In this document: positions 6,263-21,857 of the stretch, in pieces
Layout of the letters: every line of letters begins with the position of its first letter
Numbering within the stretch: position 1 is the first letter of the stretch
IMG/VR virus record: IMGVR_UViG_3300027917_002462
Span: 1 to 22,219 of that record
Reading direction: 5' to 3' (one strand)
Source: a virus
DNA length: 22,219 nt
Translations under genes and position numbers: made by a program
The notes under the pieces: generated by a model
Seen by the model: only the letters and a program-made list of their open reading frames with translations
Told to the model about the DNA's origin: nothing
Databases searched by the model: none

Positions 6263-6514
6263 TGTCTTTCCCTTTCATTGGCGGGTGAGGTTATCTAAAG
6301 TATGACCACGGGGTGGGCTCTAAACGTTTGAGCCTCCTTCACGATCATTCCTATTAATACCCTCCCAACTACTCTTTACTAAAATTGATATCTATTCTGG
6401 CCAAGCTTTCTGTATATTTTTTATTACACTTTAGTTACTATTAGGGCCGGGACGCCCGAATCTTTTCTATTCACATCACTCGTGCTACTATGTGGTTATC
6501 TACTTGTGTGCTCT
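6263..6514. promoter_or_regulatory. Divergent intergenic region between minus-strand and plus-strand operons
   Basis: The two gene blocks diverge from here, so both must be transcribed from this region or from further outside. It is partly AT-rich (about 6385-6440, with TGTATATTTTTTATTAC). GGCTC at 6316-6320 and GAGCC at 6330-6334 bracket the palindrome AAACGTTT. A GC hairpin, CGGG/CCCG around ACG at 6448-6458, is followed by AATCTTTT on the + strand. TTGATA (about 6386) and several TATATT/TATTAAT words occur, but none has standard 16-18-base spacing, so I do not assign a sigma70-type promoter. A phage-specific or middle/late promoter is possible. Confidence 0.4.
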
Positions 6515-6808
6515 ATGAACATAAACTCATATCCTCCAGAACTCATCTATACTATTGGCGAGATCTACGAAGCTTTTCTCAATCCAGAACTCAATCATGC
6601 TTATAGATATAAGAAGCTAGTAGACATCAGCACCAATGGATATGACTGCAAGTATGCAAAAGCCTCTTACCATCGATGGCTTTCATCAGGACAGTCGGCG
6701 GAAACCATTAACACCCTTCTATCCGTACAGGAACAAATCACAAGAGCATTACAGCTCTACCAAGAGATAGAAAAAGATCTAAATGAGTCAACAGAAGAAA
6801 CTACATAG
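6515..6808 (+). CDS. Hypothetical small protein at the head of the packaging operon, 97 aa
   Basis: The function is not recognised. An in-frame GTG at 6482 would add 11 mostly hydrophobic residues; neither start has a visible ribosome binding site, so the start is uncertain. The product is helical: YPPELIYTIGEIYEAF, then a segment YHRWLSSGQSAETINTLLSV that could be a recognition-type helix pair, then a C-terminal charged helix (LQLYQEIEKDLNES). Size, helical content and position ahead of the terminase genes would suit a DNA-binding or small terminase-like component, but no motif proves it. Its end overlaps the next gene by 26 bases. Confidence 0.6.
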   Translation: MNINSYPPELIYTIGEIYEAFLNPELNHAYRYKKLVDISTNGYDCKYAKASYHRWLSSGQSAETINTLLSVQEQITRALQLYQEIEKDLNESTEETT

Positions 6809-7721
6809 TAAACCACCTACAGAGGGGTCTGAACGCCTTCCTGAGCGGTTTTCTACCTATAATACCAATCCGATACAGGCAGAAGACATAAAGCCTTCAG
6901 AAAGCTCTACAGCTCCTTTAAAAGATGATAAAGAAACCTGTACTGATCTAGCTACTGTAGAAGAAGAGCTTAGTGTCACTTTAGCTGGTCCTGTAGATAA
7001 GTCTGAGTTTACAAAGTACCTTGGACTCTCTATGGACAACTATGAGCTAAATATGGATAAGGAGACTGCTACCAAGTACAAGAGATATATTATGTCTTTG
7101 AAACATGGTATGCACGCGGCTGTACCTCTTACCTGTGTAGGTGGGAAGAAGTGTCCTCTAGGTTCTAGATGTCCTTTTACTAGGCACGACGATGAAGGGA
7201 TGGTAGATTATGATGATTCTACCTATCCACTATGTAGGCCCTGTCCTGTAGAAAGGGATATGGTCAAGCTTCACATGTTGGATATGGTTCGTGAGTATGA
7301 AGTAGAGCCCGATGACTATACTGATATTGCTATTGTGAGCAAACTGGCTACTCTAGATGTGCTTGAGTTCAGATGCAACATGCTTCTTGCTACCGATGCT
7401 GAAGGATTGGTTATCAGTGAGGTGACTAGCTTTGATCCAAAGAATAGTAAGGAGTTCATTAGTAGGAAGGCCCATCCAGCGTTTGAAATATTGGAAAAGA
7501 TACATAGGATAAAACAGGACTTATTGAGAGGTATGGTAGGGACTAGACGAGAAAAATACAAGAAGGATGCTGCTACCGGTGAAAGAACTTCTACTACTGA
7601 TCTCACTAAAGAGATGCACGATCTACTCGACATCCTTAAGAATGCTAAGGATGAGAACGATATAATAGATGCAGAGTATGCTGAGGTAGAGGTTCTAGAC
7701 ACTAATAAAAGGGAGTCGTAG
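6783..7721 (+). CDS. Five-cysteine protein, 312 aa, candidate small terminase subunit
   Basis: The ATG at 6783 lies inside the end of the preceding gene. Residues 1-75 look disordered (Ser/Thr/Glu/Pro-rich). A compact Cys cluster follows: C118, C124, C130, then CRPCP with C151 and C154, a spacing suited to zinc or an iron-sulfur cluster. Residues 155-205 are helical. Residues 229-258 (KAHPAFEILEKIHRIKQDLL, then GTRREK) resemble the C-terminal pattern of P27-type small terminase proteins, where HPA is followed by a helix and a basic turn. Together with its place upstream of the large terminase this suggests DNA recognition during packaging. That assignment is inference. The tail (282-312) is acidic. 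Confidence 0.75.
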   Translation: MSQQKKLHSKPPTEGSERLPERFSTYNTNPIQAEDIKPSESSTAPLKDDKETCTDLATVEEELSVTLAGPVDKSEFTKYLGLSMDNYELNMDKETATKYKRYIMSLKHGMHAAVPLTCVGGKKCPLGSRCPFTRHDDEGMVDYDDSTYPLCRPCPVERDMVKLHMLDMVREYEVEPDDYTDIAIVSKLATLDVLEFRCNMLLATDAEGLVISEVTSFDPKNSKEFISRKAHPAFEILEKIHRIKQDLLRGMVGTRREKYKKDAATGERTSTTDLTKEMHDLLDILKNAKDENDIIDAEYAEVEVLDTNKRES

Positions 7722-8005
7722 TGCTATATACATGTTCATGCTTAGATCCGGACTGCGATATCTGCAATCCTGCTAAAAGGGATGATTGTGGTCCGCCTTG
7801 CTGTAATGAAGACCAGGATTGCTCTAAAGACAGCAAGAAAGATGGTTGTTGTGGTGGTTGTTGTGAACGATCTGCTGATATTAATGATGTAAGCCAGATT
7901 AGGGTAAATATGGAATACTACATTGGCAGAGTGAATGAAGATGCGCTTAGAAAGCTTCCTAAGGATATGCCATTTAGGCTGGTGCCTAACAAAGTAGAAA
8001 AGTAG
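7721..8005 (+). CDS. Cysteine-rich peptide, 94 aa, 12 Cys in the first 48 residues
   Basis: The GTG start shares one base with the TAG of the upstream gene (TAGTG) and is preceded by AAAAGGGAG. Cysteines are at 5, 7, 12, 15, 23, 27, 28, 34, 43, 44, 47 and 48, including CxC, CxxC and a CCGGCC block, interspersed with acidic and lysine residues. Such density suggests metal clusters (zinc or metallothionein-like) or an iron-sulfur protein. The C-terminal 45 residues contain no Cys and look like a small folded tail (MEYYIGRVNEDALRKLP). No family is recognised. Position between two packaging-region genes hints at a virion or packaging role. Confidence 0.75.
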   Translation: MLYTCSCLDPDCDICNPAKRDDCGPPCCNEDQDCSKDSKKDGCCGGCCERSADINDVSQIRVNMEYYIGRVNEDALRKLPKDMPFRLVPNKVEK

Positions 8006-8027: not shown

Positions 8028-11000
8028 GTGGAGTTCAATTGGCTAGGAATGAATATAGCCGCTGGGCAAATTGGCGGCTTGTTTCATAGATTTCTGGGAC
8101 TTGGTGGAACAGCACCGGCACCTCCAACTGCATTACCAGCTAATAGCGTTACCTTCGACTTAGAGACTACTGGTTTAGAGCCAGGTAGACACTCTGTTAT
8201 AGAGGGTGCTGTCTATGATATGAAGTCTGGTACAACGTGGTCCAGACCGATTACTCCATATATAGGTCGAGATGCAGTTAGTATAGATACTCTTTCTGCT
8301 AGTGCTTCTGATTGGTGGAAATCTAGACAGAAGGCATTGTATAGCTGGGTGGGAAAGGACGCTGCTCAAGTAGCTCCAGACGAGTTTGTTAGGCAGCTAG
8401 CCAATAATCTAAAAGGCAAGGTAGTTTGGATTCAGAATGCTCCATTTGAATCTAGACAAATGGCCGATCTATTTAAGCATCACATTGGGCCAGAAGAGCT
8501 TGCTTCGATTAGGAAGATGTTCGAGACACGACCTCTTTCCGAGGCTAGTCAGAGACATCTATTCTATGTGACAGGTAGAGATATTCAGGCAGCTAGACAG
8601 ACTGCATTTCAGACACGAGACTGGATGCCTGTCTTTACTGAGTATTTAAGAGATGCAGCTCGTAAGACAGATGCTATTAGGGTTCGTGATATTCAAGATG
8701 TGACTAGAGCTATTTTTAGTGAGTCACAGCGTATAGGATTGATGAAGGCTACCAAGTCGTTCGTAGGTAGCAATATCAATACTTTGTCTCTGGCATATGG
8801 ATTTGATCCAGAAGTTCATAGAGCACCAGCTGATGTTCTTAGAGAAAGTGACCTATTACGTAGGTTGTGGAGAGTAGCGACTGGATTACATGAATCTAGA
8901 CATAGAGGACTGTGGGGCGAGGCAGCTCTTGTATTCAGCGATAAATACAGAGAAGATCTGACTGCTATACGTAGAGTAGGTCATGCACAAGAACTGTTGT
9001 TGCAGAGATCGATAGCTAGGAACCTAGCAGAAGCTAAGTTGGCATTAGACTTTGGAGAGGGTGAGGTTAAAGGTGTAAACGATAAGCTGATGAGTTTCGT
9101 AGCACCGATGGAGACGTATGAAGGGAAGGTAGTACATCAGCGTATTGCCTATCACCTCAAAAAACAACCAAAAGATTTCGACGAGGCAATCAGACTATTT
9201 ACGTCTGAGCGCTTTATGAGCAAAGGCCTGACAGACGTTGTCGAAAAAGCAGTTCTAGATGTAAAGACGAAATCTAGAGCTGGCTTAAGAGAAATGGTGG
9301 CTAATCCATTAAAGCTTGAGCTTGATGCTAATGCTGAGCTAATCAAGCTGATGGATGAGGCAGGTAAGTTTAATAACTGGGATGCTTTACGCTTCTTGTT
9401 TGCTAGACATCCTATCAAGATGGGTGCTATAGCAGCTACAGGACTATATCTTACTGGCGCTACCATTGACTTTGCTACTTCGAGAACCAGTACACCAGCA
9501 TTAGAGGATGAATCATTTGTAGATTGGTCTGGTATGGAGCCCTATGGCATTGGCTCCGATATGAGGCACTATTCAACTGATTTTGGTTCAGGTTGGCGTG
9601 GTTTACTAGACTTTACTGGAAAGATAGCTTATCTAGGCAAGCAAGCAAGGACAACTTGGTTTCAGCAGGGGGAATTGACTGCTCTTGGCGTAGATATTGA
9701 GCAACGTGTAACTAGACTTGCTAAGAAGGTGTCTACACAAGACTTTCACCAAGCTACTTCACTAATTAGAAGACGGTCATTGGCTCATCCACGAGAAATG
9801 CATATTCGTGATCGTCTGGATAATGTTGCTTCGCCTAGACTGCAGCCAGGATCAATGGCTGAGTTTTTGGTAGGTGCTGATTCAAAACAGATAACTTCAG
9901 CTAAGCGTACAAGCTTTATTGGCTATAGAGACTACAATATTATTCAAGGTCTTGGTTATGGGCGCGTAACTCCAGGAAGTGGGTTTGGTTCTCCATCTAT
10001 AGGTTTTGAACTCTTAGATGTAGGTATTCTTCAGTTAACTGGTAAGATGTCGGGCCTGGGCAGGAAGACAGGATGGGTTAAGTTTGGTGAAGGTGCTTCG
10101 ATATCCATTGCTGATCTTTTTAAGTCTGCTGTTGGTTTTGAGAGAAAAGTACCTGGGGCAGGTAAAGAGCTTGAGTATCTTGCTCGTGTACATGAAGCAG
10201 CTGGGGCAGAAAGACTTGGTATTGTCAACTTCTCTGCCTTCATGTCTAAAGGATATAAGTCAAAGGTCATTAGACATGAAACTTTCCACAATCTTGTAGA
10301 CGATGAGTGGAGAACACAGTTTGCTAAGATTAATCCAGAACTTCTTAAACATGCTGGTCTTGAGAACTATCGATGGGGCTATCAGCCAGAATTAGCTGTA
10401 GAAGAATATGCGGCTTATCGTCTTGGAGATTTACAGACTCCAGTAGAGATTCTAGGCGAAGCAGCTGCTAATAAACGCTTGCTGACTACTTTAGAGACTC
10501 TTACAGAGCAGTCAGCTATTAGTACTTGGGCTAAAAGAAAACAGCTTAGATCCCAACTACTTGGCATGCAAGATCAAGGTATTGCTGCAAAACTTAGAGA
10601 TGCTTTTACTGATTTTGGTTCTCCGTGGAAGGGTATGGCTTCTCCATGGAAGGCTATAGCTGCAGCAGCACGTCGTCTTAGAGGTCGTGCTCAAACATGG
10701 GCTAGTAGTTCAGGTATGCGTTATATGGTTCCTGGACCTCGCCGTGTTAGTAAGGTAGCTACTGCAGCTCAAGAAGCAGGTCTTTCGGCTAATTTGAGAG
10801 GCAATCGTATTGAAGGAATGAAGAAGAGTGGTCTCTCATATTGGTCACGTGCTGTAGATCATGACTTTGGTCGATCATGGGCTCGTTTAGCTAAGCTTAT
10901 GGAGAAGATAGGTAGTGTCTTTTCCAGACTGACAAAAGGCCTGTTTAAACGCACTACAACAGCACAGAAGGCACTTGCAGAAGAAGCTCCTGTCTTTACA

Positions 11001-12170
11001 AATATCATTAAAGATGAGTTAGCTAATCAGGAGAGTAGCTTGATTCAGACTCTTATTAAGTCTGGATATACAACATCAGAAGTACATGCTCAAAGTATGG
11101 TGCAAAGAGCTAGCTGGTTCACAATGGGTGGATCCAAGTGGGCAAGGTTTGAGACTTTGGGTAAGGGTGGTTTTGGTAAAGCTTGGCTCGTTGCATCTCC
11201 CGAAACTGGTCAAGTTGGTGTACTAAAGCAACTTCGTCCTAGCTTAAAGCCTGGATCATGGGGTGCTGGTAGACAGGCTGAACCATGGCTTTATCCTGCA
11301 AGGCCAGGTGCTGCAAAACCACCTACAGAACTGAGACAACGTCTAATAGGTAATATGGATGAAGTTGTTGGATGGATGGATGAAGGTAATATTCCACCAG
11401 AATGGGGCAAAGGCACAATAGAAGAGATCATGGCTGCCCAAAAAGCTTATACACAGCTGTATAGATCCACAACGCCAGACAGAGAATTACGCTCTATAGA
11501 ACATATTCTGTCTTATGAGGTTGCTATGCAGCAACAAGCTCGTAAAGAGCTTGGCGATGTGATTCCAGAAGTTTTTACTGGTGGCGTGATTGAAGTAGGT
11601 GGTGAGAGAGCAGGAGTTGGATTTATCCAAGAATATGGTGGTCGAGGACTAGGTAGCATGTCTAGGCGTATGACTCCTGAACAATTAGCCTCTGTTGAGT
11701 CACAAGTAAGAGAGTATGTTGAGGGTCAGCTACAGCGTGGTGGTGTATTTAACTGGGACTTAGGTAGAAACAATATTCTTGTTGATCCTGGTACTATGAA
11801 AATACGGATTATTGATCAAGGTGGTGCTACCTTTATCAAGGGCGTTCACGATGAAGCATATAAGGAATATGGTAAAACCTTTGGTAATATGATTATGGAG
11901 CGTATTTTTGGACCAATGCGAGGAGAGATTGGGCATGTCACTTCTAGTAATATGCAGAGGGCTGCTATTCAGGGAGTAGAAGCTAGTGGTGGTAGAGCTG
12001 TTGTTGGTCTTGAGGAGGCAACAGAAAATTCACTTGCCTTTGCAGCAATAGAAGCAGACGCTAGAAGAGCAGCTTGGAGAGAGCGTAAACTACAAGTAAC
12101 TAAAATGCAACATGAAGCACATAAGAAGATGTTTGGGCGTAAGACTGGTCATGCTAAAGGAGGTCACTAA
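8028..12170 (+). CDS. Giant polyvalent-type protein: exonuclease, metallopeptidase and protein-kinase-like domains, 1380 aa
   Basis: The GTG start has AGGA seven bases upstream. Three enzyme-like domains are visible. (1) Residues about 40-285, DEDDh exonuclease: FDLETTG (D44, E46), QNAPFES (N137, with E141 where an acid is expected), and HRAPAD (H264, D269). (2) About 715-830, zincin-like: HETFH at 750-754 is HExxH, with candidate third ligands E788/E792/E793 in PELAVEEYAAY. (3) About 1035-1290, protein-kinase-like: glycine loop GKGGFG (1045-1050), K1067, catalytic WDLGRNN (D1244, N1249), and IDQG (D1263) in place of DFG. A hydrophobic stretch at about 464-481 may be a membrane segment. The linkers are helical and basic. 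Phage proteins of this kind are packaged and ejected with the genome to disarm host defences. That role is inference from architecture and position. Confidence 0.85.
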   Translation: MEFNWLGMNIAAGQIGGLFHRFLGLGGTAPAPPTALPANSVTFDLETTGLEPGRHSVIEGAVYDMKSGTTWSRPITPYIGRDAVSIDTLSASASDWWKSRQKALYSWVGKDAAQVAPDEFVRQLANNLKGKVVWIQNAPFESRQMADLFKHHIGPEELASIRKMFETRPLSEASQRHLFYVTGRDIQAARQTAFQTRDWMPVFTEYLRDAARKTDAIRVRDIQDVTRAIFSESQRIGLMKATKSFVGSNINTLSLAYGFDPEVHRAPADVLRESDLLRRLWRVATGLHESRHRGLWGEAALVFSDKYREDLTAIRRVGHAQELLLQRSIARNLAEAKLALDFGEGEVKGVNDKLMSFVAPMETYEGKVVHQRIAYHLKKQPKDFDEAIRLFTSERFMSKGLTDVVEKAVLDVKTKSRAGLREMVANPLKLELDANAELIKLMDEAGKFNNWDALRFLFARHPIKMGAIAATGLYLTGATIDFATSRTSTPALEDESFVDWSGMEPYGIGSDMRHYSTDFGSGWRGLLDFTGKIAYLGKQARTTWFQQGELTALGVDIEQRVTRLAKKVSTQDFHQATSLIRRRSLAHPREMHIRDRLDNVASPRLQPGSMAEFLVGADSKQITSAKRTSFIGYRDYNIIQGLGYGRVTPGSGFGSPSIGFELLDVGILQLTGKMSGLGRKTGWVKFGEGASISIADLFKSAVGFERKVPGAGKELEYLARVHEAAGAERLGIVNFSAFMSKGYKSKVIRHETFHNLVDDEWRTQFAKINPELLKHAGLENYRWGYQPELAVEEYAAYRLGDLQTPVEILGEAAANKRLLTTLETLTEQSAISTWAKRKQLRSQLLGMQDQGIAAKLRDAFTDFGSPWKGMASPWKAIAAAARRLRGRAQTWASSSGMRYMVPGPRRVSKVATAAQEAGLSANLRGNRIEGMKKSGLSYWSRAVDHDFGRSWARLAKLMEKIGSVFSRLTKGLFKRTTTAQKALAEEAPVFTNIIKDELANQESSLIQTLIKSGYTTSEVHAQSMVQRASWFTMGGSKWARFETLGKGGFGKAWLVASPETGQVGVLKQLRPSLKPGSWGAGRQAEPWLYPARPGAAKPPTELRQRLIGNMDEVVGWMDEGNIPPEWGKGTIEEIMAAQKAYTQLYRSTTPDRELRSIEHILSYEVAMQQQARKELGDVIPEVFTGGVIEVGGERAGVGFIQEYGGRGLGSMSRRMTPEQLASVESQVREYVEGQLQRGGVFNWDLGRNNILVDPGTMKIRIIDQGGATFIKGVHDEAYKEYGKTFGNMIMERIFGPMRGEIGHVTSSNMQRAAIQGVEASGGRAVVGLEEATENSLAFAAIEADARRAAWRERKLQVTKMQHEAHKKMFGRKTGHAKGGH

Positions 12171-13180
12171 TGGCTTTGTTCCGTACTGCAGGCGTTGCTG
12201 CACGTAAAGGAGTACAAAAAGCAGGTGCAGTGGTTAGCAAGCTTCTTCCTAGTGAGGTAACTGTTAGAACAGCAGTGTCTGATTTGCCAACTCTTACTCC
12301 AGAATTGGTAGGTAGTCGCACGAATTTAATGATGGTGGAAGGGTTTGATTACGCTACTGGTACTATGACTGCTCCTGTAGGACGTAAGTTTAGTGGTGTA
12401 TTTGGTGAGGCTTTTGAGCGTGCTGGTTTACCAACAGATATACCAGGACTAAGAACTGCTGCAATAGAGCGCTTTCAACCACAGTTTCGTGCACGTGTAC
12501 AGGGTGCTGTAGATTATGGTGGGCCTCCTGCTCGAATGGATTTTGGACTTACTGAGAGTGTATTTCCTGTGGGATTACCAGCTACTACACCAGCTGGTGG
12601 CTATACAGGAACAATGACTGTTGGTGGTCCAAGAAGAGTAGGAAGAATTGTTGGTCAGCCTGCTGTTGCACCTGTTACTCTAGATGAAGGTGTCGTATTT
12701 CAGCGACAAGTAGCGAGTGCACTACAAGAAGCTCCAACTCGTATGAGACCTAGAATTGAGCCTGGGCCCGGTTTGACTAGTGAAGTACAAATGCAAAGGC
12801 CTGCATGGCCTGGGCCAAGTTTTAGTGCTAAGACAAAGGGGTGGAGTTTTAGAGGTAGTTTTGTCGATCGTCTAGCTGGTGCTGGAGTAGGAATAGCTAC
12901 TAGTAAATATACGTGGGGCGGATTAGCTGCTACTGGTATAGCGGGTATGACAGGCTTTGGTGGTTATGCTTTAATGCAAAATCAGGTTGATATGAATAAA
13001 CAAGCTATGAAATCATTGAAGACGATGCGCAACTCTCTTCGTTATGGTGGTATGAACAGGCGTGGTGATTTTGAGTACAATCCTATGATGACATTCTCTA
13101 GACCTCGTGTACGAGCTGGCCATCTTGGAGCTAATGGTGGTTTGACATTAGCTCTTAATCGCCAAAGGAGTGCTAGATAA
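12170..13180 (+). CDS. Gly/Pro-rich putative virion protein with one membrane segment, 336 aa
   Basis: The ATG overlaps the stop of the giant gene by one base (TAATG), with AAAGGAGGT just before it, a near-perfect ribosome binding site. Residues 1-30 are basic-amphipathic. Residues 60-215 are rich in Gly, Pro, Val and Thr with little predicted helix. Residues about 248-268 (TWGGLAATGIAGMTGFGGYA) form a Gly-rich hydrophobic segment. The C-terminal 65 residues are basic and end in RQRSAR. No family is recognised. Its companions at 13180 and 16334 share this small-residue composition and basic C-terminus, suggesting a group of internal capsid or membrane-interacting virion proteins. Confidence 0.75.
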   Translation: MALFRTAGVAARKGVQKAGAVVSKLLPSEVTVRTAVSDLPTLTPELVGSRTNLMMVEGFDYATGTMTAPVGRKFSGVFGEAFERAGLPTDIPGLRTAAIERFQPQFRARVQGAVDYGGPPARMDFGLTESVFPVGLPATTPAGGYTGTMTVGGPRRVGRIVGQPAVAPVTLDEGVVFQRQVASALQEAPTRMRPRIEPGPGLTSEVQMQRPAWPGPSFSAKTKGWSFRGSFVDRLAGAGVGIATSKYTWGGLAATGIAGMTGFGGYALMQNQVDMNKQAMKSLKTMRNSLRYGGMNRRGDFEYNPMMTFSRPRVRAGHLGANGGLTLALNRQRSAR

Positions 13181-13929
13181 TGCCAACTCTGACATCATAT
13201 TTTGACAAAATGACTCCTGCTAGACAGGCTACTTGGTTGAGTGAGTTAGAGTGGTCTGGTGCAACAATGGGGTTTCATATTACTCCTGGCGAAGCATATA
13301 CAGAAGTAGGTCCTATGATGCCTGGAGCTAGACGTGCTAAGTTCTTTATGCCTGGTACAGCAGAATGGATGGGCTTAAGAACTGCTGGCAGAGGTATTAA
13401 AGAAGCTGCAGGACTTGGTGCTAAAGGCGCATGGGGTAAAGCTTTTGCAGTTGGAGGAAAGGGATTGGCTAAAGCTGCTGGTAAGGGCTTTGCTCCTGGA
13501 CTTGGGCTTTATTTTACTGGAACGGCTGCTCTTGAAGGCTATCGTCAGGGTGGTGTGACTGGAGCTATTAGTGGTGGCCTAAGAGAAGCAGCTATTAACT
13601 TGGCGTTGTTTGCTGGAATACGAGCGTTAGGACCGCATGGTGCTCTTGTTCTTGCAGGTGGTGCAGCTGTTGCTGGTGCAGGATTAGCTCTTGGTTATGG
13701 ATTTGCTAAGGGTGCTGAAGCGTCTTGGCAGTATCACATGCGCAACTTACCGCTTGAGACGACAGGGTCTTTGTCAGCCTTTAGTACTGGTGGTGCTGCT
13801 ACCATGAGACAAAGAAGCTTGATGAATATTCAGCGCAGTCATTTGAATGCACGTTCGGCGTTTGGCAATGAAGCACAGTACGCACACTTGGCAAGATATA
13901 GGGGTGTTGGTAGACGAGGCTTGATGTAA
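13180..13929 (+). CDS. Gly/Ala-rich putative membrane-interacting virion protein, 249 aa
   Basis: The ATG overlaps the upstream stop by one base (TAATG) after CAAAGGAG. The first 60 residues look soluble. Residues 66-105 are a Gly/Ala/Lys-rich amphipathic stretch. Residues about 104-175 contain two or three Gly/Ala-rich hydrophobic segments (including LVLAGGAAVAGAGLALGYGF at 156-175). The C-terminal part (207-249) is basic, with ATMRQRSLMNIQRSHLNARS, a segment that looks like a conserved tail rather than a linker. Such small-residue helices resemble glycine-zipper packing in oligomeric membrane proteins. A genome-delivery or internal-virion role is inferred from composition and position just before the terminase. 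Confidence 0.75.
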   Translation: MPTLTSYFDKMTPARQATWLSELEWSGATMGFHITPGEAYTEVGPMMPGARRAKFFMPGTAEWMGLRTAGRGIKEAAGLGAKGAWGKAFAVGGKGLAKAAGKGFAPGLGLYFTGTAALEGYRQGGVTGAISGGLREAAINLALFAGIRALGPHGALVLAGGAAVAGAGLALGYGFAKGAEASWQYHMRNLPLETTGSLSAFSTGGAATMRQRSLMNIQRSHLNARSAFGNEAQYAHLARYRGVGRRGLM

Positions 13930-16334
13930 TGCACGAGAAGATCAAAGATCTATATATGGAGAACGAGTATGGAATCCAATATTTGGATTACTATAAGAAA
14001 GCAGACTCACAGTTAGTCAAGTATTGTCAAGATACCTACAATATCAACACTAAATGTCATGGCATGTGTGTGAATTGCCAGATCGATCATATCAGTCGAT
14101 ATGGTGATACTAGTGATTGGGCAATCAAGGTAGAAAAGGCTTATGTTTATGAGCAGGAAGATTTACGTGAAGTTGTTGGTATGCTTAGGCGCTTCCAGAG
14201 AGTCAAGATACTGAAGCGTAAAGGTCGTTTGGTTCGTATTCAGGCAGTCATCAACTATGGTGTATGTACAAGAGACGAGGAGCATCCTCGTGTTTATAGA
14301 GAGCGTAAATCAGATATTAACCAGCTTCGATGTGAGATATGTGAATCTGCTATGTCTGCTCGTGTACATAAGATTGAAGGTTGGGTGCCTTTTGTTCATG
14401 TTACTGCGTTTAGTGTCAAGTGTGGTTTTGTTCCAAAGAGCTATGAAGATGAGATTCCTTCAACTGTAAGAAAGACACTTACCAAAGAGAAGCTTGAAGC
14501 TCTTCTTAGTCTTATTGATCCAGTTAAATGGGCTCGTGACTTTCTAGGTATTGAGTTGCGTGAGCATCAGAAAGTTGATGCTATGTGTACAGCTAAGCAC
14601 ACTGTACGAAGGTGGGGAAGACGATCAGGTAAAACCTATTCTGAATGCCAGAAGGTTCTTAGGTTTGCTCTGACAACACAAATCTCAGAAGGACATGATG
14701 CTAAAGGAAAGGAGATTAAGCGTGGTCCAGTAGTACTTGTTGTGTCGCCATACTTGGCTCAGATTACTTTGATTTTCGATATGATTCGCAAGATGGTCAA
14801 GAGAAATCCAGATATTCACATTCAGCGTGATATTAAGACGCCTTATCACTATCTGAAGTTTGCAGATACTGAAGACTGTGAAGGTGCAGTTATTATGGGT
14901 TTTACTGCAGGATCATCGTCTGGTGCAGAAGGTGGTACTGTTCGTGGTCAAGGCGCTGACATGATGTTAGTAGATGAGGCTGATGATATGCCAGAAGCTG
15001 ATCTACTGGATGCTGTCGAGCCTATCCAGATTACAACACCCAACGTAATGATGATGGCTTCATCTACTCCAAAGGGTAAGCGCGAATGGTTCTGGAAGGT
15101 TTGTACTGAATCACCTCATTATAAGGAAACATACTTTCCTGCCACAGTACTAGACCACTGGGATGAAGTTAAGGACGAAGTTGAGCGCAAGGGTGTTACT
15201 GGCGTGCACTTCTTGCAAGAGTATATGGCACAGTTTGCTATTCAGATTGAGGGTGTTTATCAAGCGAACTATGTCACTGATGCAGAAGTTGATTACGAAT
15301 ATGGACAATCGCATAAGATATTGTGGAATCAAGAGACTTTTGGGGTAGATGCACCAGAGTCTGGATGGACTTACTCGATAGGCGTGGACTGGAATACTAA
15401 CGCTGGTGTTGAGCTTGTTATTGTAGGATTGCCTCCTAATAATATTGAGTTTTGGGTGGTAGATGCCGTTAACATACCAAAACACGAGTATCAGCAGCAT
15501 ATTGCTATGGAAAAGCTTATTGAGCTGAATCGTTACTGGAATCCATCTTTCATCTATGTAGATAGAGGTTATGGTGGCACACAGCTTGAGCATCTACAGA
15601 TCTTTTCTGATCGTGCTCGTATGCGTGAGCCAGGTTCTGCTGATGCTAAACTGAAGGACATTCTTACGGCTTATGACTTTGGTAAGAAGATTGCATATCG
15701 TAATCCTGCTACTGGTTTACAAGAAGAGACTCAAGCTAAGCCATTCTTGATTGAGAACTCTATTAGACAGTTTGAGCAAGGGCGTATTCGTTTCTCTAAG
15801 CATGACCATATCTTGCATCAACAGCTGCATAACTACATTATTGCTGGTGTAAGTCCACAGGGCGTGCCTCGTTACGGAATGAATGATAAGAAGATTGGAG
15901 ATCATAGGCTTGATGCTCTTAATCTTGCGCTAATTGGATACATTCTTGAGATGTCTGAATGGGCCACTGATGTAGGTGAAGTGGCAAATATATTGCATGC
16001 TTCTAGTTTTGGTTCACAAGAGGTTAGAAAGCTGGTAGCAGAGAACGAGCGTAATTGGATCGAATTTGTGCGTGGTGTTCCAAGAGGTATAGGTTTACCA
16101 GGTCATCTTAAAGTTAGATATGACCCTGGTTATGTTGAAATGAAAGAAACACAACGCCAGACATCTTCTGAGCATAGTCGTACTGCTGAGATAGATAATG
16201 CTGGTCGTCAAGATACTAATACATTGCGTATAGGTTTCAGCTCAGATACTGAATGGAAGTATGATGGTACTAAGAAGCCAACATCACGAGTAGCCCATAT
16301 TCATAGTCGCAAACCCAAACGAAGGACATTCTGA
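13929..16334 (+). CDS. terL: Terminase large subunit (ATPase and nuclease), 801 aa
   Basis: This is the DNA-packaging motor. The ATG overlaps the upstream stop by one base. The ATPase has Walker A GRRSGKT (230-236), Walker B MMLVDEAD with D349/E350, and the coupling motif SST at 378-380 in a TPNVMMMASSTPKGK context. The RNase H-fold nuclease follows: GVDWN (D487), YVDRGYGG (D545) and GDHRLDA (D658, D662). An extra N-terminal region of about 200 residues precedes the ATPase and carries two cysteine clusters, CHGMCVNC (C43, C47, C50) and C113 with CEIC (C135, C138), likely zinc-binding. The C-terminal 125 residues after the nuclease are basic and less ordered. At 801 residues it is clearly longer than typical large terminases (roughly 450-650). 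Confidence 0.97.
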   Translation: MHEKIKDLYMENEYGIQYLDYYKKADSQLVKYCQDTYNINTKCHGMCVNCQIDHISRYGDTSDWAIKVEKAYVYEQEDLREVVGMLRRFQRVKILKRKGRLVRIQAVINYGVCTRDEEHPRVYRERKSDINQLRCEICESAMSARVHKIEGWVPFVHVTAFSVKCGFVPKSYEDEIPSTVRKTLTKEKLEALLSLIDPVKWARDFLGIELREHQKVDAMCTAKHTVRRWGRRSGKTYSECQKVLRFALTTQISEGHDAKGKEIKRGPVVLVVSPYLAQITLIFDMIRKMVKRNPDIHIQRDIKTPYHYLKFADTEDCEGAVIMGFTAGSSSGAEGGTVRGQGADMMLVDEADDMPEADLLDAVEPIQITTPNVMMMASSTPKGKREWFWKVCTESPHYKETYFPATVLDHWDEVKDEVERKGVTGVHFLQEYMAQFAIQIEGVYQANYVTDAEVDYEYGQSHKILWNQETFGVDAPESGWTYSIGVDWNTNAGVELVIVGLPPNNIEFWVVDAVNIPKHEYQQHIAMEKLIELNRYWNPSFIYVDRGYGGTQLEHLQIFSDRARMREPGSADAKLKDILTAYDFGKKIAYRNPATGLQEETQAKPFLIENSIRQFEQGRIRFSKHDHILHQQLHNYIIAGVSPQGVPRYGMNDKKIGDHRLDALNLALIGYILEMSEWATDVGEVANILHASSFGSQEVRKLVAENERNWIEFVRGVPRGIGLPGHLKVRYDPGYVEMKETQRQTSSEHSRTAEIDNAGRQDTNTLRIGFSSDTEWKYDGTKKPTSRVAHIHSRKPKRRTF

Positions 16335-19739: not shown

Positions 19740-21857
19740 ATGACAATTGCAGTCAATAGATTTACGGTAGAAGATCGTATTAAGCCACGATCGCCACTTT
19801 CTGTCAAGCAGGTGAACTCTCCTGTACTGGGATACAAACAAACTAATTCTCGTACGACATTTGAGCCACCTGAATATGACCTGTCTGAGTTTAACACAAT
19901 TGAGGATGTCGAAGCCTATGTTAGACAGACTCATCGTAAGAAGATCGGACTTGGGTTTAAGGAAGGCTGGGATCTTGTAGGCAAGAATATCGATACGCTT
20001 AGCTATATTAAGAAGCGTTTTGCTCAATTAGAGCATGCACAAGGTAAGCCTTGGCGTCTTTTGATGAAAGAGATTTTCTATGACTTGGTCAAGCATTCGA
20101 ATGCTTATCTAGTCAAGGTTAGAAATGCGGATGTATCTGGTGGGTTTACACGAACTGCCAATGGCAAGAGTATTGATCCTATAGCGGCTTACTTTATTAT
20201 GGCTCCAGAAACAGTACAGATTGCTAAAGACAACTCTGGGAAGATTCTTAAAGTACGTCAGTCGATGCCGGATGGTCGTACGAAGACACATGCACCTGAT
20301 TTGGTAGTGCATTTCTATCTTGATAAGAAGACTGGCTTCTCTACAGGTACACCTATCCTTACGCCAGTGAAGGACGATATTCGTACTCTAAGACGTATCG
20401 AAGAGAACATAGAGCTGCTTGTATATCAGAATCTGTTTCCGTTATTCCAGTACAAGGTAGGTACAGAGAAGTCACCAGCTAAGACTTATCCAGATGGCCA
20501 AACTGAAATAGACATCGTACATAATAAGCTTGAGTTCATGCCTCCTGAAGGTGTCCTTGTTACGCCAGAGCGACATGAAATCTCAATGATTGGTTCTGAG
20601 GGACGTGCTTTAAGAGCAGAGGGTTATCTCAAGCACTTTAAAGAACGTGTGATGGCTGGTCTGGGTACTAGTAGCGTTGACATGGGTGAGGGTGGCACTA
20701 GTAATCGTAATACTGCTGATAGGCTGTCAGATAACTTGCGAGACGATGTAAAGTCTATTCAGGATGATTTTGAAGCTCAGTTTGATTTCTTTATCATTAG
20801 AGAGCTACTATTAGAAGGCAAGTTTGGTGCTGACGTACTTGATCCAGAAAATACAGTGCATCTTAGCTTCCGTGAGATTGATACTGATCGTCAGATTGCC
20901 AAAGAAAATCATGTGGCACAAATGTACACACAGCATATTTTCTCAGAGGACGAGGCTCGTATCAAGATAGGCTACGATCCTATTCCACTAGACGATCAAG
21001 AAGTCAGGGAGAAGATGTATTGGAGTATGATTGAGCAACCTAGCTTGCTTATCAGATCTATCGATGAATCATCTGGCCTGTCTGCTGCTACTGACAACCC
21101 TCAGGTTGCTGTGGAGAAAACCAATGCACGTGAGGGTGAAGAGAGAACTAAACGTATTGGTGCGGCCAGCAAACCACAGCCTCAGCAAGCTGCCAAGAAG
21201 AATAGTGGTCAGAGAGCTGGAGCAAGTAGGGATCAGCCTAGTAACCAATATGGCACTAGAACTGGTCCTAAGACGCGAAGAGATTTTGTAGATACTGAAT
21301 TACTTTCACATGTAGAACAGTTACTACATGATGTTTCAATCTATCTACAGTCAGATGCAAGTAAGTCATGGGTCAAAGGCGTAATCAAGGCCTGGACCGA
21401 ACAGACAAACAAGAGGCAATCAAGACTAGCAAGAGGTGCTTTTGTAGCTGGCGTTCGTAGCGTTGGCCTCAATCCATATTTCTATAATTTAGCATCACAG
21501 GTTCGAACTGTTGAAGATCATTCATCACGTTATGTACGTAAGTTGGCTCGTAATCTAGAGGATAGGTTTCAGAGATTGACAGGTGAAGAAGATGTTTCAA
21601 CCATGATGTCGATTATGGATATTACTGTTAATCGTGTAAATGCTATCAATGAAACAGAACAGCAAAGAGCGTATAATTATGGTAGATTAGTAGCGTTCAG
21701 GTTGACCGGTGATAAAGTCAAATATACATCTCATGCTGGCGCCTGCGAGGAGTGTATGATAACAACAAGACAGGATAATCTTGATCCAAGAAAGTTGTCT
21801 ATTGATGACATTCCTCCTGTGCATCCGTACTGTAGTTGTTCTGTAGACAAGGAATAA
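19740..21857 (+). CDS. Portal protein with C-terminal MuF-like head-morphogenesis domain, 705 aa
   Basis: The portal is the dodecameric ring at the head vertex through which DNA enters and leaves. The ATG follows AGGTCTATAG. Residues about 40-440 show the portal pattern: PWRLLMKEIFYDLVKHSNAY, IAAYFIMAPETVQI, then GFSTGTPILTPVKDDIRTLR leading into the long clip/stem helices, and a FREID strand. A low-complexity linker (455-515, rich in Ala, Gln, Lys and Arg) joins a helical C-terminal region (515-705). This ends in YTSHAGACEECM (C669, C672) and IPPVHPYCSCS (H695, C698, C700), the typical end of MuF/SPP1 gp7-type head-morphogenesis proteins. Those are normally a separate gene just downstream of the portal, so this looks like a fusion. 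Confidence 0.9.
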   Translation: MTIAVNRFTVEDRIKPRSPLSVKQVNSPVLGYKQTNSRTTFEPPEYDLSEFNTIEDVEAYVRQTHRKKIGLGFKEGWDLVGKNIDTLSYIKKRFAQLEHAQGKPWRLLMKEIFYDLVKHSNAYLVKVRNADVSGGFTRTANGKSIDPIAAYFIMAPETVQIAKDNSGKILKVRQSMPDGRTKTHAPDLVVHFYLDKKTGFSTGTPILTPVKDDIRTLRRIEENIELLVYQNLFPLFQYKVGTEKSPAKTYPDGQTEIDIVHNKLEFMPPEGVLVTPERHEISMIGSEGRALRAEGYLKHFKERVMAGLGTSSVDMGEGGTSNRNTADRLSDNLRDDVKSIQDDFEAQFDFFIIRELLLEGKFGADVLDPENTVHLSFREIDTDRQIAKENHVAQMYTQHIFSEDEARIKIGYDPIPLDDQEVREKMYWSMIEQPSLLIRSIDESSGLSAATDNPQVAVEKTNAREGEERTKRIGAASKPQPQQAAKKNSGQRAGASRDQPSNQYGTRTGPKTRRDFVDTELLSHVEQLLHDVSIYLQSDASKSWVKGVIKAWTEQTNKRQSRLARGAFVAGVRSVGLNPYFYNLASQVRTVEDHSSRYVRKLARNLEDRFQRLTGEEDVSTMMSIMDITVNRVNAINETEQQRAYNYGRLVAFRLTGDKVKYTSHAGACEECMITTRQDNLDPRKLSIDDIPPVHPYCSCSVDKE

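Follow-up and report, generated by a model that had tools for sequence, protein, structure and literature searches.

Phage polyvalent proteins combine several effector-type domains in one polypeptide, protein kinases and zincin-like metallopeptidases among them. For one kinase clade of these proteins, Iyer et al. (2017) described extra residues inserted between catalytic His and Asp, together with a lost C-terminal kinase subdomain and a retained active site (PMC5512222). Here, we describe a gene that invites comparison with these proteins. It is found in IMG/VR virus record IMGVR_UViG_3300027917_002462, a 22-kb fragment of 22,219 bases that was analysed at its full length (hereafter, the window), occupies positions 8028–12170 of the + strand, and encodes a modular multi-enzyme protein of 1380 residues.

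The best reading of our results is that this protein is a member of a hitherto unnamed family of virion-delivered effectors of a new subtype, recognisable by a repeated linker between enzyme modules; we put the probability that the window protein is a virion-delivered polyvalent effector of this kind at roughly two in three.

The multi-enzyme gene and its relatives

The open reading frame (ORF) is intact, starting with GTG, preceded by AGGA 7 bases before that codon, and ending in a stop codon that shares bases with the ATG of the following gene, for which an AAAGGAGG is present. From position 6482 on, the genes all have the same orientation and follow one another with small gaps or none, through terminase to portal. 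The large terminase subunit (TerL) and the portal protein of the window are ~30% identical to those of phages MTATph1, ME3, and KLEB27-3, which belong to the 0305phi8-36 lineage (0305phi8-36 itself is absent from the phage collection searched). Homology searches with the entire protein against INPHARED phages, PLSDB plasmids, IMG/VR, and GTDB genomes gave no significant match; relatives, designated here by L numbers, were instead reached via TerL/portal synteny and via the linker.

The linker motif

The linker is a motif of ~35 residues, SGKDDxYNTIEGLxHxGxAxxxRxxxTDFGSGW, that separates swappable modules. Searches seeded by the repeats in L012 and L007 and run on 2.9 million viral contigs recovered it, after removal of redundancy, in at least 38 phage proteins of 339–2418 residues, each with 1–6 copies; these proteins come from 0305phi8-36/ME3-like phages. 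All copies lie within one ORF per record in 15 records of up to 191 kb. Pfam holds no family for the motif, which was likewise not found in INPHARED (cultured phages), PLSDB plasmids, or a scan of GTDB genomes, and we found no description of such an inter-module repeat.

Two copies in the window protein, at residues 491–525 (positions 9498–9602, +; ending in TDFGSGWRG) and 835–869 (10530–10634, +; ending in TDFGSPWKG), score 26.9 and 30.8 bits, respectively, against a hidden Markov model (HMM) built without the window's rows, far above the best of 500 shuffles (4.3 bits). Two further stretches may be degenerate copies: residues 635–643 (DYNIIQGLG; 9930–9956, +), which at 0.4 bits are not significant, and residues 926–948 (NRIEGMKKSGLSYWSRAVDHDFG; 10803–10871, +), which at 0.5 bits are not significant alone and are aligned by MAFFT to the pre-kinase linker of relatives. 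One linker weakly matched Ntox37 (1e-3) and nine others did not, and the match was treated as chance.

Codon identity among the linkers of one gene is 0.48, compared with 0.41 expected, and the Phe, Ser, and Gly residues of the motif are conserved at 99, 100, and 98%. Because codon identity is near expectation, the linker looks to be kept by selection on the protein rather than by recent duplication of DNA. The shuffling of modules between linkers might suggest a mere recombination footprint that eases module exchange and has no role in the protein, but with codon sharing barely above chance and a highly conserved protein motif, this explanation is very improbable.

A prohead cleavage site of the T4 type is of the x-E form. 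The Glu of the IEG triplet is only 76% conserved and is absent from both strong window linkers, so a cleavage site of this type in the linker is not favoured. The same observation bears on a broader proposal, namely that the protein is a polyprotein precursor whose linkers are cut by a phage protease, or in cis by the HExxH module described below, to release separate enzymes in the head or in the host. The regular placement of linkers between modules, the low model confidence around them, and the zincin processing of polyvalent proteins proposed by Iyer et al. (PMC5512222) speak for cleavage, whereas many linker proteins have no HExxH or HExxE motif at all. We consider the polyprotein reading somewhat doubtful; it is compatible with delivery of the effector in the virion rather than exclusive of it.

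The linker could also be a dedicated cargo tag, a 35-residue element with which phages of this lineage bracket arbitrary enzyme modules for loading into the virion or for threading through the tail. The particle would then recognise the linker, or the linker would let modules pass through the tail, and the whole would amount to a plug-in platform for effector delivery. We offer this only tentatively, at less than even odds.

Enzyme modules

The initial annotation had proposed three enzyme classes in one chain, an exonuclease, a metallopeptidase, and a kinase-like domain. Every residue that it named is in place: D44, E46, H264, and D269; the HExxH at 750–754; and the kinase glycine loop (G-loop; 1045–1050), K1067, D1244, N1249, and D1263. 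The exonuclease and the kinase are borne out by profiles, and the kinase by its fold as well; the metallopeptidase is probable, its fold being unproven.

The DEDDh-type 3'-5' exonuclease module covers residues 42–282 (8151–8873, +; D44, E46, N137/E141, H264, D269), and its assignment is upheld by profile. The window protein matches PADLOC DEDDh at 4e-6 and PHROG 192 (DNA polymerase exonuclease) at 5e-4; residues 43–392 align with the 2085-residue protein in the syntenic position of L012 (25% identity, 6.5e-19); and a family profile from an 11-row alignment finds the PolC exonuclease (9e-10) and DnaQ (4e-6) in the PDB. Invariant across that alignment are D44, E46, N137, H264, and D269. The DEDDh motif set comprises DxE, NxxFD, and HxxxxD, and the window has the first and the third; its second motif (N137..E141) reads NxxFE, as in ME3, and the canonical NxxFD is present in the modules of L134, L145, L156, and L158. 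The cultured phage ME3 encodes a stand-alone homologue of the module (2.8e-23) two genes upstream of its TerL gene.

The kinase domain, at residues 1038–1270 (11139–11837, +), is by itself marginal in Pfam (E = 0.027). Its family profile, however, reaches protein kinases (2e-14) and RIO2 (6e-12) in the PDB, and the family alignment is invariant at a G-loop Gly, E1164, D1244, D1263, and G1265. Folding and fold searches had been suggested for this region with the initial annotation, and here they succeed: the AlphaFold core has a predicted local distance difference test score (pLDDT) of about 82–94, and the model matches PknB and RIOK3 (VIA Z 13.7) and kinases by Foldseek (3e-5, probability 1.0). 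All features that mark the kinase superfamily are found: the G-loop, K1067, the C-helix Glu (E1164), the catalytic Asp (D1244), N1249, the Asp of the DFG motif (D1263), and the fold. The active-site residues are retained. Past D1263 (the DFG equivalent, DQG), what follows in the model is a set of long helices and not an evident complete C-lobe, as judged from the model itself, and the domain for this reason looks like a minimal kinase. Around the catalytic Asp, the window has N-W-D1244 where relatives have H/N-x-D, so that no residues are inserted between His and Asp.

The third module, at residues 716–798 (10173–10421, +), is a predicted zincin-like metallopeptidase with HExxH at 750–754. A single HExxH arises in 3.5% of shuffles of the window protein, and the motif alone is therefore weak; what supports the module is the conservation of HExxH together with a downstream Glu, since H750, E751, H754, and E792 are invariant in the window and four divergent relatives (L007, L111, L146, and L148). 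E792 lies 38 residues after H754 and is probably the third metal ligand, which would complete the set of residues characteristic of zincins. The same structural approach that matched the kinase gave a low-confidence AlphaFold model here (mean pLDDT 50) with no usable fold match (best Foldseek E 0.74, best VIA Z 3.5), and the family profile had no match in the PDB, so that the peptidase remains a prediction. These results would also suit a catalytically dead or non-peptidase domain, leaving two enzymes in the chain. Given the four invariant residues, and given that HExxH/HExxE motifs occur in other modules of the linker family, we regard such a domain as unlikely and a zincin metallopeptidase as probable. 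A second HExxH, at residues 288–292, has no support as a domain of its own and is probably due to chance.

Among the 38 linker proteins, the exonuclease is found in 22, the kinase in 21, staphylococcal nuclease (SNase) in 14, HExxH in 7, and HExxE in 4. These counts come from module HMMs iterated on the same protein set, so that the weakest assignments depend on profiles built within the set, with Pfam independently supporting many. The exonuclease is nearly always N-terminal and the kinase usually last. It had been suggested that the combination in the window protein may be undescribed; the same set recurs in L147, and L146 has this set plus SNase. By eye, further effector-like modules can be seen between linkers (ART-like, GNAT-like, PD-(D/E)XK-like, and nucleotidyltransferase-like), at L012:6722-7480 and in the linker proteins of L147, L136, L123, L153, and L121.

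Two other elements accompany the modules. A hydrophobic segment at residues 462–483 (9411–9476, +; mean hydropathy 1.17) precedes the first linker and is a possible membrane helix; across the family, the stretch before the first linker has a mean hydropathy of 1.0, compared with 0.2 at random positions. The protein ends in a basic tail at residues 1365–1380 (HKKMFGRKTGHAKGGH; 12120–12167, +) of a family type, G-x-[KRG]-H, that is present in 23 of the 38 linker proteins compared with 6.1 expected from shuffles.

Indirect evidence for carriage in the virion

Just downstream of the linker gene lies the TerL gene in 34 of 37 relatives. The remaining three (L150, L153, and L155) have the linker block in the tail module, after the sheath, tube, and chaperone-position genes, where it forms a fusion with an ME3_35 homologue (in L155, E = 5e-74 over 1047 alignment columns). 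ME3_35 is annotated as 'virion structural protein' and encoded beside the tape measure gene. Of 8 TerL-type records, 7 have the ME3_35-type protein in an ORF of its own that lacks linkers, from which it follows that the tail-fusion and TerL types are the same kind of phage. From the ME3 annotation, ME3_35 would correspond to orf145 of 0305phi8-36. For that phage, it is stated that no non-structure genes other than orfs 143 and 144 occur close to the tape measure gene (PMC2147016). The fusion in three relatives supports, by analogy, carriage of the window protein in the virion and is the best evidence for it; together with the position in the operon, it supports carriage indirectly. Among the fused genes themselves, that of L150 (L150:9005-13550) is split into two overlapping ORFs, those of L155 and L153 being one ORF each, and the L153 product also has intein matches.

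These data also bear on a role confined to the producing cell, in which the protein would be an accessory of head assembly and packaging: the nuclease would trim DNA ends, the peptidase would mature the prohead, the kinase would regulate the motor, and nothing would be injected. Such an accessory might be expected from the tight coupling of the gene to those for TerL and portal and from the constancy of the locus in TerL-type phages. However, module content varies freely among phages that share packaging genes, no enzyme module being universal in the family, and in three phages the tail module contains a block of this kind as a fusion with a homologue of a virion structural protein. We judge an accessory role distinctly unlikely.

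We therefore return to the virion-delivered effector. Such a protein would be produced together with the head and packaging proteins of its operon, enter the particle, and reach the host along with the DNA, where its modules could act at once. The exonuclease would have nucleic acid as its target, the minimal kinase would phosphorylate host proteins, and the HExxH module would cleave either host proteins or the effector. A constant frame made up of the ~35-residue linkers and the basic tail would separate the modules, probably serving in loading, threading, or processing, and within this frame enzyme modules would be swapped between phages. Our results show the domain content, the linkers, the synteny, the exchange of modules, and, in three relatives, the fusion to a virion protein homologue; presence in the virion of the window's phage, ejection, the substrates, and the role of the linker are what we infer. 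Several points weigh against this account. The virion fusion occurs in three relatives and not in 34, which leaves carriage of the TerL-side version to analogy; the exonuclease has E141 where such enzymes usually have Asp; the fold of the HExxH module is unconfirmed; the substrates of the modules are presumptive; the linker proteins are known here from genes alone; and the window is a 22-kb fragment. If the account is true, a single motif suffices to find an entire class of effectors delivered by phages and to delimit their modules. New anti-host enzymes could then be recognised in environmental phage genomes, and it would become a testable question how phages load multi-enzyme proteins as long as 2400 residues and thread them through a tail.

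Genomic neighbourhood

The placement of the gene upstream of packaging genes, noted at the outset, holds: genes for TerL and portal follow in the same operon. TerL (13929–16334, +) matches PHROG 2 terminase (1e-27) and is 31% identical to MTATph1 TerL, and the portal protein (19740–21857, +) matches PHROG 9232 portal (2e-51) and is 30–35% identical to the portals of MTATph1, KLEB27-3, and ME3. Near its C-terminus (about residues 660–705), the portal protein has a CxxC...HPYCSC pattern that is MuF-type-like by eye and has no Pfam match. The TerL relative in L007 (L007:9992-13519) contains an intein whose LAGLIDADG domain matches Pfam at 4e-16, and other TerL relatives also look split by insertions.

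On the upstream side, o312 (6783–7721, +; 312 residues, function unassigned) is a conserved neighbour with a homologue upstream in 28 of 37 relatives; its Cys cluster (CPLGSRCPF...CRPCPVE) has no family match and may bind metal or Fe-S. Between it and the multi-enzyme gene lies a very Cys-rich ORF of 94 residues (7721–8005), perhaps encoding a small metal-binding protein. Two Gly/Ala-rich, glycine-zipper-like, hydrophobic products are encoded between the effector gene and TerL, at 12170–13180 and 13180–13929. The second of these, o249 (13180–13929, +; 249 residues), has homologues in nearly all linker loci, and the C-terminus of its family resembles that of ME3_12 by eye.

Comparison with known systems

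Two proteins of Acinetobacter phage ME3 resemble parts of the linker family. ME3_11 shares with the window protein a DEDDh exonuclease, a hydrophobic segment, and a position two genes upstream of TerL, but it has 529 residues and no linkers, kinase, or peptidase. Homologues of ME3_35 form the C-terminal part of the three linker proteins or loci named above (L150, L153, and L155); ME3_35 itself has no linker or enzyme modules, and the window protein has no ME3_35-like part.

Among the minimal effector kinases, those of the OspG type are matched by the kinase of one relative, L149 (OspG_kinase, 7e-7), and in both the kinase appears to stop shortly past the DFG equivalent. The window kinase is not matched directly; the similarity is weak, and OspG belongs to the type III effectors of bacteria. 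Polyvalent proteins resembling the virion RNA polymerase of phage N4 are likewise giant and multi-domain, with an HExxH domain, and the N4 type is a virion protein, whereas the window protein has no RNA polymerase and consists of small interchangeable enzyme modules with repeated linkers.

The polyvalent proteins remain the main point of reference, and the comparison drawn with them in the initial annotation fits as regards the general definition; the early ejection and the action against restriction that came with it are putative. At least two effector-type domains share one polypeptide in the window (exonuclease and kinase confirmed, HExxH probable), and the phage has portal–terminase packaging, as do the phages to which polyvalent proteins, thought to be packaged, are tied (PMC5512222). 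A text search of that article found neither 'SNase' nor 'linker', and we found no paper that brings polyvalent proteins together with a staphylococcal nuclease and a kinase domain in phages. The linker family shares with polyvalent proteins the joining of several effector-type domains, protein kinases and probable zincin-like metallopeptidases included, and differs from them in its DEDDh exonuclease, its SNase, its minimal kinase free of an insert between His and Asp, and the additional ~35-residue repeat between its modules.

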